The notes beneath the pieces are model-generated. The model had not been told where the DNA came from, did not search any database, and was given only the letters and a program-made list of their open reading frames with translations. Of a stretch of 64,000 bases of DNA, positions 38,508-54,401 are shown in pieces (position 1 is the stretch's first letter; each line of letters opens with the position of its first letter). The position numbers and the translations under genes were made by a program. The DNA comes from Olsenella porci (GTDB lineage: Bacteria; Actinomycetota; Coriobacteriia; Coriobacteriales; Atopobiaceae): assembly GCF_009695875.1 (NCBI RefSeq), contig NZ_VUNC01000001.1, forward strand, positions 1 to 64,000. The letters are read 5' to 3'.

Positions 38508-38939
38508 CTAGTCGATGGCGACCTTGGTGACGCTGTCCTTCTCCTGGATCTTGGGCACGTTGACCGTAAGCACGCCGTTCTCCAGCTTTGCGGTCAGCCC
38601 CTGCGTGGAGGCGTCCTTAAGATAAACGCCACGGGTTGCCTGCCACTCGCCGCTCTCCTTGTGCAGGTAGTTCTTGCCCTTCTCCTCGTCGGACTCCTTC
38701 TTGTCCACCGAGATCGAGAGGCGACCCTCGTTGAGTTCGACGTCAATCTGATCACGCTTGACGTTGGGGAGCTCGGCAGAGACCACGTACCTGTCACCAG
38801 CATCCTCGACATCCATCTTGAAGACGTTGCCCTCCGCAGCCGAGACGAGCGGGCCGCCAAAGAAGTCGTCGAACGCGTCCCACGGGAAGGCCCTGCGAAG
38901 TGCCCTGTCATAGCTGCTATAAGGAATCATGCTCGTCAT
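38508..38939 (-). CDS. hsp20: Small heat-shock protein, Hsp20/alpha-crystallin family
   Basis: A 143-residue ATP-independent holdase that keeps unfolding proteins soluble. The alpha-crystallin core runs from about residue 40 (VFKMDVEDAGDRYVVSAELP) to GVLTVNVPK, with the N-terminal PWDAFDDFFG and a C-terminal tail lacking a strict IxI motif. ATG at 38939 has AGGGAG eight bases upstream; other in-frame starts exist at 38945 and 38999. The inverted repeat 132 bp upstream, shared with dnaK and clpB, points to HspR control. Confidence 0.94.
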   Translation of the reverse strand: MTSMIPYSSYDRALRRAFPWDAFDDFFGGPLVSAAEGNVFKMDVEDAGDRYVVSAELPNVKRDQIDVELNEGRLSISVDKKESDEEKGKNYLHKESGEWQATRGVYLKDASTQGLTAKLENGVLTVNVPKIQEKDSVTKVAID

Positions 38940-39070
38940 GTTCATCACTCCCTGATGATGCCCTGTGGACGCCCCGTTACCGTGCGTCCCTGTGTTCACT
39001 CGTACTTGTTCCCATACAGTAGGACTTTATTCCTCACGACAAGATTTTCTCAGTATTTGCGACTAAGCAA

Positions 39071-39092
39071 ATCTAAGCCATATTTGTTAGAT
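39071..39092 (-). promoter_or_regulatory. HspR-type operator of hsp20
   Basis: Plus-strand TCTAAGC-N6-TGTTAGA, an inverted repeat matching the ones upstream of clpB and dnaK except for a spacer one base shorter. An extra CTAAGC half-site (39063-39068) stands ten bases upstream in tandem. It is 132 bp upstream of the hsp20 start in a 302-bp AT-richer gap (38940-39241) shared with the divergent membrane-protein gene. Confidence 0.65.
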
Positions 39093-41679: not shown

Positions 41680-44367
41680 CTACTCGATGGTGTCGGGCTC
41701 CACGGGACCCTCGTCCGTGCCGGACGCCTCGCGCTCGACCGCGGCGCGAGCCTCCTCCTGGCTCCTCCGGCTGGCCTCCTCGTCGCGCGTGGCGACCAGG
41801 TTGTCGTCCGGGCCCACATCAATGCGAACGGTGTCACCCTCGTGGAGCTTGCCGTCGATGATGAGCGTGGCCACGTTGTCCACCACCTGGCGCTGGATGA
41901 GACGCTTGAGGGGACGCGCGCCGTAGACCGGGTCGAGCCCGTCGAGCGCGAGCGACTGGATGGCGCCGCCGCTCAGCTCGAGCTTGATCCTCTCGCGGTC
42001 GAGGCGCTCGCGGACGTCGCGCAGCTGGATGTCGACGATCTTCTCGATGTCATCGAGACCAAGCGCGTGGAAGACCACGACATCGTCGATGCGGTTAAGG
42101 AACTCGGGCTTGAAGGTCTGCCTCAGGGCATCGTTGACCTGCTTCTGGACCACGTCGGGATCGGTTGAGGCGTTGGCACCCGCAATGAACTGGCTGCCCA
42201 CGTTGCTCGTCATGATGATGATCGTGTTCTTGAAGCTGACCACGCGACCCTGGCCGTCGGTGAGCCTGCCGTCGTCCAGCACCTGGAGCAGGACGTTGAA
42301 GACGTCGGGGTGCGCCTTCTCCATCTCGTCTAGCAGGATGACGCTGTACGGACGCCTGCGGACCGCCTCGGTGAGCTGACCGCCCTCGTCGTAGCCCACG
42401 TATCCCGGGGGCGCGCCGATGAGGCGCTGGACGCTGAACTTCTCCATGTACTCGGACATGTCGATGCGCACGAGCGCGCGCTCGTCATCGAACAGGCACT
42501 CGGCAAGCGCCTTGGCAAGCTCCGTCTTGCCTACGCCGGTGGGGCCGAGGAAGAAGAAGCTACCGATGGGACGGTTGGGGTCGGACAGCCCGGCGCGGCT
42601 GCGGCGAACCGCGGCGGCGACGGCCTTCACGGCCTCGTCCTGCCCCACGACGCGCTTGTGGAGCTCCGACTCCAGGTTCTTGAGCTTGTCCATCTCGCCC
42701 TGCATCATCTTGGACACGGGCACGCCGGTCCAGGCGCTCACGACCTCGGCGATCTCCTCGCTGGTGACCTCCTCCTTCAGGATGCCGCCCGCCTCCTGCT
42801 TCTGACTCAGGGCCTTCTCGGCCTCGTCGTACTCCTTCTGCAGGCTGGGGATGGTCGAGTAGCGGAGCTCGGAGGCACGTGCGAGGTCGCCGGCGCGCGT
42901 GACGCGCTCCATCTCGGTCTTGGCCTCCTCGATCTTCGCCTTGAGGTCCTGGACGTGGTCGATGGCGCCCTTCTCGTTCTGCCAGTTGGCCTTCATGCCG
43001 TCGAGCTTCTCGCGCGTGGTGGCTATCTCCTTGCGAAGGGCCTCAAGACGCTCGCGGCTCGCGGCGTCCTCCTCCTTCATGAGGGCTTGCTCCTCGATCT
43101 GCATCTGGGTGAGCTGGCGGTCAACCGCATCGATGTCGGCGGGCATAGAGTCGAGCTCCATGCGCAGGCGAGACGCGGCCTCGTCCACCAGGTCGATGGC
43201 CTTGTCCGGCAGGAAGCGGTCGCTGATGTAACGGTTGCTGAGGTCGGCGGCGGAGACGAGCGCGGCATCCGTGATGCGCACACGGTGGTGCTGCTCGTAC
43301 TTCTCCTTCAGGCCGCGGAGGATGCTGATGGTCTCCTCCACGGAGGGCTCGCTCACCATGACCGTCTGGAACCTGCGGGCGAGTGCCTGGTCCTTCTCGA
43401 TGTACTTGCGGTACTCATCCAGCGTGGTGGCGCCGATGGCATGGAGCTCGCCACGTGCGAGGGCGGGCTTGAGGATGTTGCCGGCGTCCATGGAACCCTC
43501 GGTCGCACCGGCGCCCACGATGGTGTGGAGCTCGTCTATGAACAGGATGATCCTGCCGTTGGACTTCTCCACCTCCTTGAGGACGCTCTTGAGGCGATCC
43601 TCAAACTCGCCACGGTACTTTGCGCCGGCGACCAGCGCGCTCATGTCGAGCTCGATGATCTCCTTATCGCGAATGGTCGAGGGCACGTCGCCGGCGACGA
43701 TGCGCTCCGCAAGGCCCTCGACGATTGCCGTCTTGCCAACGCCGGGCTCGCCGATGAGAACGGGGTTGTTCTTGGTACGGCGCGAGAGCACCTGGATGGT
43801 GCGGCGAATCTCCTCCACACGGCCGATGACGGGATCGAGCTTGCCCTGGCGCGCCATGTTGGTCACGTTGCGCCCATAGTGCTCCAGCGCCTCGAATTCG
43901 GTCTTGGCGTCCTGCGAGGTCACCCTGTCGTCACCGCGAAGATCGTTGAACGCCTCCTGCACGCGATTGGACGTGACGCCCATGCTCTTGAGCGCGCTGC
44001 CAGCGGACGTCTTGTCGTCGGCGAGGGCGCACAGCAGGTGCTCGCTCGTCACGTACGAGTCGCCCATCTTGCCGGCAAGCTTCTCGGCGGCGTCGCCCAC
44101 CTTCACGAGCTCGTTGGAGAGCCCCATCTGCGAGGCGTCGCCCGACACCTGTGGCTCGCGCGCCATGGCATCGTCCACCTGCGCCTCGAGCTGCGCCGGA
44201 TCCGCGCCCACGCGCTCGATGATCGCGCTGATGTTCCTCTCGCCCGAGGAGAGGAGGGCCTTGAGGAGGTGTATCGGCTGGACCTGCCCAGCCGAGTGGT
44301 CCGCCGCTATGGAGAGCGCGGACTGCAGGGCCTCCTGGGCCGTCACTGCCCACTTGTCAAATCTCAT
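41680..44367 (-). CDS. clpB: ATP-dependent disaggregase ClpB
   Basis: ClpB (895 residues) is a hexameric AAA+ chaperone that works with DnaK to rescue aggregated proteins. The N-domain begins [14 protein letters not shown]; the first AAA module has GEPGVGKT and the second GPTGVGKT. Between them is the ClpB-specific coiled-coil middle domain (about 400-520, rich in E, K and R). The tail is a short acidic extension. ATG at 44367 is used; GTG at 44373 with GAGAGG four bases upstream is also possible. The HspR-type repeat lies about 95 bp upstream. Confidence 0.97.
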
Positions 44368-44461
44368 ACACACATCACCTCTCCGTCCCTGCAAGGCAGA
44401 GCCTGCGGGATCGCTGCTTATCGCAGGTTATTGTTCCCGCATCAACTGGTTCGTATACATT

Positions 44462-44484
44462 ATCTAAGTCTATGTATGTTAGAT
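44462..44484 (-). promoter_or_regulatory. HspR-type operator of clpB
   Basis: Plus-strand TCTAAGT-N7-TGTTAGA, arms of 7 bp and a 7-bp spacer. The 18-base core TATACATTATCTAAGTCT is identical to that in front of dnaK. On the minus strand the arm merges with GATAAT, a -10-like element, so binding would block the promoter. Confidence 0.7.
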
Positions 44485-49838: not shown

Positions 49839-50267
49839 TCAGGCGTCGTGGTCCTTTCCACTGGAGAGGAGGCCGCGCATGACCTGCTCGGGACTCGACC
49901 CGTCGTAGCGCGCGAGGGCCGTGATCTTTTCCCTCATCCTGAACTCGTGAACCTCGTCCTCGAGCTCGCGTACCCTTGCCCTGAGCTCGTCGATCTCGCG
50001 GTCGCGCTCCTCCGCCCGCTCCCTCATGTCAAGGATGCGGACGACGCCAGCAAGGTTGATGCCCTCATCAGTGAGTTTGCTGATGAGGTTGAGCCGCTCT
50101 ATGTCGTGCTGCGAGTACAGTCTGGTGTTGCCTCGCGATCTGCCAGGGTTCACCAGCCCCTTCTGCTCGTAGACGCGCAGCGTCTGGGGGTGCATCCCCG
50201 TGAGCTCCGCGGCTACGCTGATCATGTAGAGGGGCTTGTCCTTGCCCTCGCCCTCCTTATGCGCCAT
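49839..50267 (-). CDS. hspR: Heat-shock repressor HspR (MerR family)
   Basis: A 142-residue MerR-type repressor. The helix-turn-helix and wing are [23 protein letters not shown] and [17 protein letters not shown] (12-51), followed by a coiled coil (about 78-118, [23 protein letters not shown]) and a short tail. This is the actinobacterial heat-shock repressor that uses DnaK as co-repressor. It overlaps the dnaJ stop by 11 bp at the end of dnaK-grpE-dnaJ-hspR, as in Streptomyces and mycobacteria. Its likely targets are the inverted repeats in front of dnaK, clpB and hsp20. Confidence 0.95.
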
Positions 50268-51231
50268 AGCGGTCGACGTCCTTCCTGTATGCGCGCTTGT
50301 CTGCATCGCGCAACGCGGTGAGCGCCTCGCGCTCCTTTGCCGAGAGCCTCGTGGGGACCTTCACCCTCACCTTCACGTACAGCGCGCCACGGGTGCCCTT
50401 GTGCTTGACGTCGGGGGCACCGAGGTCACGGAACCGGAAGGTCTTGCCATCCTGCGTCCCAGCGGGGACCTTCAGACGGACCTCCGTGCCGTCGGGCGTG
50501 GGAACGTTCACGCTGGTACCCAACGCCGCCTCGTAGGCGCTCACGGGAAGCTCCATGCGAACATCCGCCCCATCACGCTTGAACAGCGGGTGTTCCTGGA
50601 CCTTGGTGGTGATGACTAGGTCACCGCGCGCTCCGCCGTTCACGCCGTACTCGCCACGGTTGCGGTAGCGGAGCTTGCCGCCGTCGACCGCGCCGGCAGG
50701 CACCTTCACCGTGATGGACTGGCGCTCGCCCGTGGACGGGATGGTATAGCTGACCTTGCGCTGCGCGCCCTTGAATGCCTCGTCGGCACCGATCTCGATG
50801 CTCATCGTGAGGTCGCCACCCTTGACGGGACGGTTGGTCGCGCGCGCCCCTCCGGGCTGCCCTCCAAATATGGACGAGAAGTCAAAGCCGCCAAAGGCGC
50901 CGTCGCCGCCACGGATGTTGTCGAAGATGTCCGCCCAGTCGGCACCACCCATGTTGGTGGTGTAGGTGTAGCCCGTGCGGTTGCGCCCGCCGGAGCCACC
51001 GAAGTCGGAACCGGGGATGCCGCCAAACATCAGCAGCTGGTCGTACTCCTTGCGCTTCTGGGGATCGGAGAGGGTCGTGTACGCCTCGCTGACCTCCTTG
51101 AACTTCTGTTCGTCCCCTCCTGCATCGGGGTGGTACTTTGCGGCGAGCTTTCGGAACGCCTTCCTTATCTCGTCGGGGGTGGCGTCACGCTTCACACCAA
51201 GCACGTCGTAGTAGTTTCGCTTTCCAGCCAT
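50257..51231 (-). CDS. dnaJ: DnaJ-family co-chaperone without zinc-finger domain
   Basis: A 324-residue Hsp40. The J domain has the HPD motif (34-36) that stimulates DnaK ATPase, then a Gly/Phe-rich linker (about 70-135) and two beta-barrel substrate-binding domains. The CxxCxGxG zinc fingers of type I DnaJ are absent, so this is a type II/CbpA-like protein. It sits between grpE and hspR in the chaperone operon. The start has AAAGGAGG about 12 bases upstream. Confidence 0.96.
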
Positions 51232-51298: not shown

Positions 51299-52066
51299 TT
51301 ACTTCGCGTCTCCGTCGCCGCTAGGGGCCTTCTCCGAGTCCCCGCCGTCAGAGGCGTCCTTGCCCTCCTCGGGCTGGGGCCTTTTCGGGCCTCCGTAAGT
51401 CACCGTGACCATGGCGTTGCGGATGACCTTGCCACCCATCCGGTAGCCCCGCTGGTACACCTGGGCAACCGTCTCGTCGTAGGCATCCTTGTTCTCCTCG
51501 CGACCCACCGCCTGGTGGACCAGGGGGTCAAAGGGCTCACCCTTGGGGTCTATGACCTCGACGCCCTCCTTGCCCAGAATCGAGAGCATCTTGTCATGCA
51601 CGGCATCGATGCCCTTCACAAACTGCTCGAGGTTCTCATCGCCCTCGGCGCCCTTCGCCGCGTGCTCGGTCGCACGCTCCATGTCGTCGAGCACCGGAAG
51701 CAGGTTGGTGACGAGCTTCTCCGCAGCACGCTCGCGCTCGTCCAGGCGTTCCTGGGCGGTGCGGCGACGGTAGTTGTCCCAGTCCGCCTGGAGACGAACG
51801 AGCCTGTCGGCAGACTCGGAAGCCTCCTTCTTGGCGTCGGCTATCTCCCTTTCGACGCCATCAAGCTTCCTCTGCAGGTCGTCCCTCTCGGCACGTACCT
51901 TCTCCACGTCGACCTTGAGCTCGTCGGCCGCCGCCTTCTCGCCCGCGCGCTTGGCGGCCTCGACCATAGCGGCCTCGTCTTCTTCAGGGGTGGTCGCAGG
52001 AGAGACCCCCTCGCCCTCCTTGTCGTCGGGCCTCTTGTCATCGTTGACCTCGATCGGCACTTTCAC
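51299..52066 (-). CDS. grpE: Nucleotide exchange factor GrpE
   Basis: A 255-residue GrpE that releases ADP from DnaK. A long acidic N-terminal coiled coil (about 20-95) is followed by the conserved core DWDNYRRRTAQERLDER, LLPVLDDMERA, GVEVIDPKGEPFDPLVHQAV, and QVYQRGYRMGGKVIRNAMVTV. The C-terminus has an acidic P/E/D/S tail beyond the core. The start is GTG at 52066 with GAGGAGG five bases upstream. It follows dnaK by 89 bp. Confidence 0.96.
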   Translation of the reverse strand: MKVPIEVNDDKRPDDKEGEGVSPATTPEEDEAAMVEAAKRAGEKAAADELKVDVEKVRAERDDLQRKLDGVEREIADAKKEASESADRLVRLQADWDNYRRRTAQERLDERERAAEKLVTNLLPVLDDMERATEHAAKGAEGDENLEQFVKGIDAVHDKMLSILGKEGVEVIDPKGEPFDPLVHQAVGREENKDAYDETVAQVYQRGYRMGGKVIRNAMVTVTYGGPKRPQPEEGKDASDGGDSEKAPSGDGDAK

Positions 52067-52155: not shown

Positions 52156-54147
<1,992 letters not shown>

Positions 54148-54189
54148 TTACGTCTGCTATTTTTCCCATGCGCTCCGATTCTATACATT

Positions 54190-54212
54190 ATCTAAGTCTG
54201 ACACTAATAGAT
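54190..54212 (-). promoter_or_regulatory. HspR-type operator of the dnaK operon
   Basis: Plus-strand TCTAAGT-N7-TAATAGA. The first arm and flanking TATACATTATCTAAGTCT are identical to the clpB site; the second arm differs by two bases. It lies in the 332-bp dnaK/phosphodiesterase gap (54070-54401), which holds no gene; the rest is the dnaK leader and an unresolved promoter for the plus-strand gene. Confidence 0.7.
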
Positions 54213-54401
54213 TTTTTGAGGCTGAGATTATAGGTTCCCTAAGTGCCCGCAATTGGCCCTCCCACCGAGGTTAGAGGTGCCATGGAGTCGGCGCCTGCTC
54301 CACAACGATCGCACCACCGCGAGCCTTGGTTGTGGCACCATCGTGTGGCGCGGGCGAGACAGCCTCGCCCCACACACGCATCCACGAAAGGGGAGAGACA
54401 C

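Follow-up and report, generated by a model that had tools for sequence, protein, structure and literature searches.

Variant HspR-type operators and SigB-like promoter elements at chaperone genes suggest a rewiring of heat-shock control upon loss of HrcA, the usual chaperonin repressor

Heat-shock genes of the window and their upstream repeats

The window, the whole 64,000-nt stretch of Olsenella porci DNA analysed here, carries a dnaK-grpE-dnaJ-hspR operon, a clpB gene and an hsp20 gene (Table 1). Inverted repeats precede dnaK, clpB and hsp20. All three had been noticed in an earlier sequence-only reading and all are found in the sequence, but the coordinates given there extend one base too far at either end. 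With its A/T-rich flanks the dnaK operator spans 54188–54214. The 18-base core described as common to dnaK and clpB is real; it corresponds to TATACATTATCTAAGTCT and spans one operator arm and the apparent -35 box. The inner GT of the left arm is not kept at dnaK and clpB, so that these operators are asymmetric.

The variant sites share the geometry of the HAIR element, with 7-nt arms and a spacer of about 7 nt, as the earlier reading stated. HAIR in Streptomyces is CTTGAGT-N7-ACTCAAG (quoted in PMC6102357), and the bifidobacterial HspR operator is AAAsTTGAGysw-N6-CTCAAsTTTT (PMC9004370). The reported divergence from HAIR at three of seven half-site positions is also correct (ACTCAAG to ACTTAGA), and all three changes are transitions.

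Three features are absent from the earlier reading, namely a tandem operator at hsp20, SigB-like elements beside each site and a site at groES. The two hsp20 operators are joined by TTT. At hsp20 of the relative G118 (L147) two operators likewise stand in tandem with TTT between them, and other hsp20 genes display an additional CTTAG half-site after the operator.

Table 1. Genes and predicted regulatory elements in the window
Feature	Coordinates	Strand	Remarks
HspR operator (predicted) of dnaK-grpE-dnaJ-hspR operon	54191..54211	-	TCTATTA-gtgtcag-ACTTAGA on - strand; exact 21-nt repeat on + strand TCTAAGTctgacacTAATAGA; held-out profile E 6e-4
Putative SigB-type -35 box of dnaK, GTATAG	54181..54186	-	4 nt from operator arm; inferred promoter
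Putative SigB-type -10 box of dnaK, GGGAAA	54162..54167	-	spacer 13; inferred promoter
HspR operator (predicted) of clpB	44463..44483	-	TCTAACA-tacatag-ACTTAGA on - strand; exact 21-nt repeat on + strand TCTAAGTctatgtaTGTTAGA; E 0.002 genome-wide
Putative SigB-type -35 box of clpB, GTATAC	44453..44458	-	from sequence
Putative SigB-type -10 box of clpB, GGGAAC	44433..44438	-	spacer 14
HspR operator 1 (predicted) of hsp20	39072..39091	-	TCTAACA-aatatg-GCTTAGA on - strand, 6-nt spacer; + strand TCTAAGCcatattTGTTAGA; 7 bits, E 1.3
Putative HspR operator 2 of hsp20, tandem	39048..39068	-	GCTTAGT-cgcaaat-ACTGAGA
Putative SigB-type -35 box of hsp20, GAATAA (weak)	39027..39032	-	by eye
Putative SigB-type -10 box of hsp20, GGGAAC	39008..39013	-	spacer 13; by eye
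hspR, presumed repressor of all sites; last gene of dnaK operon	49839..50306	-	NF047375, 121 bits, cut-off 105
dnaJ	50257..51231	-	full DnaJ models score under their cut-offs
grpE	51299..52066	-	profile match
dnaK	52156..54069	-	profile match
clpB	41680..44367	-	profile match
hsp20 (small heat-shock protein)	38508..38945	-	profile match

Frequency of the motif

A loose form of the pattern (up to two mismatches) gives 4 matches in the window against 5.0 expected, a count that is unremarkable and uninformative. Loose matches often come from repeated intergenic elements of this genome (GAAAAGTCGACCTGTGGCA; CTAGCCCCTTGTGGATTT...GCTTAG), which are located at L002:1136-1290 and near 1470-1550 in L008, L010, L012, L022 and L023. 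The 2.36 Mb genome contains the exact pattern TCTAAG-N10-TTAGA only twice, at clpB and at a second hsp20 gene (hsp20#2) that lies outside the window on another contig. This gene is directly preceded by the perfect palindrome TCTAAGT-ctgatgg-ACTTAGA, which is an independent match for the prediction.

Operators at dnaK, clpB and hsp20 in Atopobiaceae and Coriobacteriaceae relatives (72 sites, with the genome of the window held out) were combined into a 27-nt profile; its E-values are rough, as the calibration was shortened. The dnaK site of G243 was left out of the profile because of an unclear best match, and the true site, AAACCTACTACATTCACACTTAGG, is included in the dnaK upstream comparison. 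An unfiltered scan of the window at E ≤ 10 shows exactly three matches, clpB (6e-5), dnaK (6e-4) and hsp20 (1.3), in line with the earlier statement that ftsH carries no such repeat. In the whole genome, at E ≤ 1, only clpB (0.002), dnaK (0.02) and hsp20#2 (0.16) are found; the site is not equally common away from stress genes. The hsp20 site of the window and the groES site of this genome have 6-nt spacers and score under genome-wide significance.

The profile was also run on 13 further genomes from Atopobiaceae and Coriobacteriaceae. Matches at genes not used in training are found at groES in six (G050, G018, G186, G048, G086 and G230) and at htpG in three (G050, G048 and G018). The sole exceptions are in G056, where a mobile-looking element holds two identical copies of low score (E = 0.7). 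Five outgroup genomes give zero matches.

No exact canonical HAIR site is present in the genome of the window, and at up to three mismatches HAIR gives fewer matches than its reversed control. One site with a single mismatch (C9:241338) lies inside overlapping open reading frames and is taken as chance, given the excess of HAIR-like matches in that control.

The operator in related genomes

HspR is found in 247 of 248 sampled Coriobacteriia. According to named loci, Atopobiaceae (the family of the window), Coriobacteriaceae (Collinsella) and Eggerthellaceae belong to one order, and in a DnaK tree the first two form one clade (100/100), sister to Eggerthellaceae. A search of related Coriobacteriia, as the sequence-only reading had proposed, shows the repeat again upstream of dnaK, clpB, hsp20, groES and htpG, and the sites are conserved at orthologous genes in both families of the clade. 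The lineage-specific form of HAIR is AAATCTAAgt-N7-acTTAGATTT, with 7-7-7 geometry and A/T-tract flanks.

The dnaK upstream regions were compared in about 110 genomes. Several genomes outside Coriobacteriia display a canonical HAIR at dnaK, e.g. CTTGAGTccgttccACTCAAG (L193); the comparison is thus able to detect HAIR. The operator in Eggerthellaceae and other Coriobacteriia is CTTGACA-N7-ACT[TC]AGA (50 of 54). Its left half, CTTGACA, doubles as a sigma-70 -35 box, and a -10 box follows 16–18 nt on in 46 of the 50. Atopobiaceae and Coriobacteriaceae keep ACTTAGA as the right half at dnaK; the left half has become TCTnA and the TTGACA sigma-70 box is gone. The change within the clade is in the left half and coincides with the loss of its sigma-70 -35 box.

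The half-site is not peculiar to the organism or its family, as ACTTAGA or ACTCAGA forms the dnaK right half across all of Coriobacteriia and also in some further Actinomycetota. These two intermediates, found at the orthologous dnaK position, link the variant and HAIR. Elsewhere in Coriobacteriia this place before dnaK holds CTTGACA-N7-ACTTAGA, and in other Actinomycetota it holds canonical HAIR, which makes the variant sites orthologues of known HspR operators. In the deep-branching genome G193 the clpB gene is situated directly behind hspR, as in Eggerthellaceae.

Promoter elements adjacent to the operators

The same predicted operator-promoter pair precedes dnaK, clpB and groES and, in Coriobacteriaceae, htpG as well. 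The overall form of the promoter module is GTWTA-N12-15-GGGWA, with a spacing to GGG of about 12–15 nt in four gene families. At dnaK, GTATA-N13-15-GGG[AG]A starts exactly 4 nt past the operator arm in 42 of 56 distinct clade upstreams (dinucleotide shuffles: mean 0.8, maximum 3). The clpB module is present in 13 of 20 upstreams (shuffles 0.2), and none of 50 outgroup dnaK upstreams displays the module. About one quarter of dnaK and one third of clpB upstreams fail the strict pattern; most retain a recognisable form, and the first box at clpB varies to GTTTAG and GTTTCA. The clpB upstreams (L158-L179) also contain a conserved TTGATAAAC-like string 8–9 nt after the GGGAACAATA box, around the expected transcription start.

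In the genome of the window, groES (L343, contig C11) shows a predicted operator, TCTAACT-tgaacg-ACTAAGA, followed by a near-perfect SigB-like GTTTAA-N12-GGGTAA. Inspection by eye gives GTATAA-N12-GGGTAT/C or similar at groES in 16 of 16 clade genomes, and htpG of Coriobacteriaceae carries GTTTTA-N13-GGGTAC. SigB promoters of B. subtilis have the consensus GTTTAA-N15(+/-2)-GGGTAT (PMC9847131). The groES and htpG elements are close to it, whereas dnaK and clpB deviate (GTATA; GGGGATA, GGGAACA) but keep the spacing and the GGG; many dnaK promoters have GGGGATA, unlike GGGTAT.

Of the three sigma factors in the genome of the window one is of SigB/F type (TIGR02980, 291.6 bits, cut-off 234; Sigma70 r2-r4). 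SigBFG scores above cut-off in the sampled Atopobiaceae, with one apparent exception, and Coriobacteriaceae. It is missing from Eggerthellaceae, which give only weaker SigA-level matches. Other Coriobacteriia with SigB nevertheless use sigma-70 boxes at dnaK. The modules of the clade are most likely SigB-type promoters: their boxes and spacing resemble those of Bacillales SigB promoters, and a SigBFG-family sigma gene is present.

An ECF-type reading, with GGGAAC as the -35 box, was rejected, as there is no -10 partner at 16–18 nt. Around the start of the sigB operon in the window's genome neither an operator nor a SigB box is apparent, and autoregulation therefore gives no support to the SigB reading. 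A search with the pattern GTATA-N-GGGAACA matched nothing but the promoters of clpB and hsp20#2 (one match in the control) and revealed no further SigB genes.

HrcA, CIRCE and the groES site

The hrcA gene is missing from 11 of 12 Atopobiaceae and 4 of 4 Coriobacteriaceae and is present in 7 of 7 outgroups; CIRCE at groES splits along the same lines. In the genome of the window HrcA is absent and groES has no CIRCE (TTAGCACTC-N9-GAGTGCTAA). Most sampled Coriobacteriia outside the clade have CIRCE plus a HAIR-like site at groES. The groESL operon is the target of HrcA/CIRCE control as well. In Atopobiaceae and Coriobacteriaceae HrcA and CIRCE are lost, and groES carries, in place of CIRCE, AAATCTAAGT-N7-(nn)AAGATTT and then SigB-like boxes. 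The exception is the deep-branching G243, which combines an HspR-type operator and SigB-like boxes with CIRCE/HrcA.

The HspR protein

An HspR regulon with a re-specified operator had been suggested for the window. The suggestion stands for the regulon and for the DNA but not demonstrably for the protein. The recognition helix HPQTLRxYE is invariant across Coriobacteriia and shows no diagnostic change. The wing is similar to GRGRRYS in HspRs of canonical-HAIR genomes and reads GNTRLYS or GSTRLYS with CTTAGA half-sites. Three HspR sequences were excluded from this comparison because of faulty extraction. Across Actinomycetota (L201-L211) the residue after TR in the wing seems to track operator type, L or M with CTTAGA and R with CTCAAG.

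The half-sites ACTCAAG, ACTCAGA, ACTTAGA and ACTAAGA all fit ACTNARR; an altered HspR protein is thus possible but would not be needed for this range. The Eggerthellaceae genome G213 has a perfect canonical HAIR, CTTGAGTgaaaaaaACTCAAG, together with CIRCE at groES (L354), and a CTTGACA/ACTAAGG-type site at dnaK. Two half-site types appear to be used by one HspR in this genome.

Proposed mechanism and alternative explanations

It is probable that the repeats are operators of the MerR-family repressor HspR and that the adjacent promoters of the clade are, most likely, read by a SigB/F-type sigma factor. In unstressed cells an HspR dimer just upstream of the -35 box would silence dnaK-grpE-dnaJ-hspR, clpB, the hsp20 genes and groESL. 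DnaK is probably a co-repressor with HspR, by analogy with the model from Streptomyces and mycobacteria (PMC8223512, PMC10415612). Unfolded protein would titrate DnaK, or heat would destabilise HspR, and the operator would be vacated. Since a SigB/F-type sigma most likely reads the promoters in Atopobiaceae and Coriobacteriaceae, full induction there would require both SigB activity and HspR release.

Chance A/T-rich repeats would suit the loose pattern count at expectation in the window, but this explanation is refuted by the conservation across genomes and the held-out genome scan and has a negligible probability. It is very unlikely that the repeats are bound by a different regulator. The departure from HAIR at three of seven positions would allow one, but position and geometry match HAIR through the intermediates ACTCAGA and ACTTAGA, the target operon that is most conserved contains hspR itself, the gene set is that of known HspR targets, and HrcA is not available in the window's genome. 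A third possibility accepts HspR but has its DNA specificity changing along with the operator, through substitutions in the wing or next to the recognition helix. Canonical-HAIR HspRs do combine GRGRRYS with YDRLGLV, and those of CTTAGA type combine GNTRLYS/GSTRLYS with YE[RQ]K; most comparators, however, differ at many residues simultaneously. The helix is invariant in the class, and in one Eggerthellaceae genome a single HspR appears to serve both the perfect HAIR of groES and the variant site of dnaK; such a change is considered doubtful.

A further alternative keeps the HspR operators but has the housekeeping sigma factor read the promoter, with GTATA(GAAT) as the -10 box and GGGAACA/GGGTAT as an initial transcribed or mRNA element. 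Sequence alone cannot give the promoter type, and TATAGAAT and TATAAT-like strings do occur at the GTATA position of dnaK. The upstream -35 partner is gone, however, and GTATA is replaced at clpB and groES by GTTTAG, GTTTCA and GTTTAA, which suit a SigB -35 box and not a -10 box. The steady GGG spacing across the four gene families, and the joint absence of SigB and of the module in Eggerthellaceae, also argue against this reading, which is judged unlikely.

Comparison with known systems

The predicted operators resemble HAIR in the 7-7-7 inverted repeat with AAA/TTT flanks, in their place before dnaK, clpB and hsp20 and in the location of hspR in the dnaK operon. They differ in the half-site, TCTAAGT/ACTTAGA versus CTTGAGT/ACTCAAG (three transitions), and in lying upstream of the -35 box, not across it. 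Unlike in HAIR systems, groES and htpG are also predicted targets in the clade.

Mycobacteria show dual control of chaperones, SigH/SigE with HspR. The arrangement proposed here is similar, a repressor and a stress sigma factor on the same chaperone genes, but the promoter looks SigB/F-type (GTWTA..GGGWA) and not ECF-type (GGAA..GTT). Bacillus has dnaK and groESL under HrcA/CIRCE control and transcribes both operons with sigma-A, whereas dnaK and groESL of the clade have SigB-like promoters and predicted HspR operators.

HspR control of dnaK, clpB and hsp20 is already known, e.g. the mycobacterial targets dnaK, clpB and acr2 (PMC8223512), as is control by a repressor plus a stress sigma factor. 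A literature search of openly available papers found none on HspR in Coriobacteriia. Within that literature the variant operator, its probable clade-wide coupling to SigB-type promoters and the proposed capture of groESL (and htpG) by HspR after HrcA loss appear to be new. The Streptomyces HspR consensus overlooks this regulon in human gut and vaginal bacteria (Collinsella, Atopobium, Olsenella), and the corrected motif enables its annotation in these genera.

Proposed rewiring of heat-shock control

The distribution of operators and repressors suggests that heat-shock control was rewired when HrcA was lost. It is somewhat favoured that the whole change took place in the ancestor of Atopobiaceae and Coriobacteriaceae: HrcA and CIRCE would have been lost, HspR would have become the sole chaperone repressor, including that of groESL (and of htpG in Coriobacteriaceae), clpB would have left the dnaK operon and gained its own operator, and SigB-type promoters would have replaced sigma-70. 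If so, promoter replacement freed the left half-site, the former -35 box, to become TCTnA, and heat shock there would require a double signal, active SigB and released HspR. The case would be a readable one of an operator half-site with a second role as promoter box that changes upon a sigma-factor switch, and of one repressor that inherits the targets of another, lost one. G193, with clpB in the operon, and G243, with HrcA and CIRCE kept, would then be intermediates; with two of these surviving, the order of events is testable.
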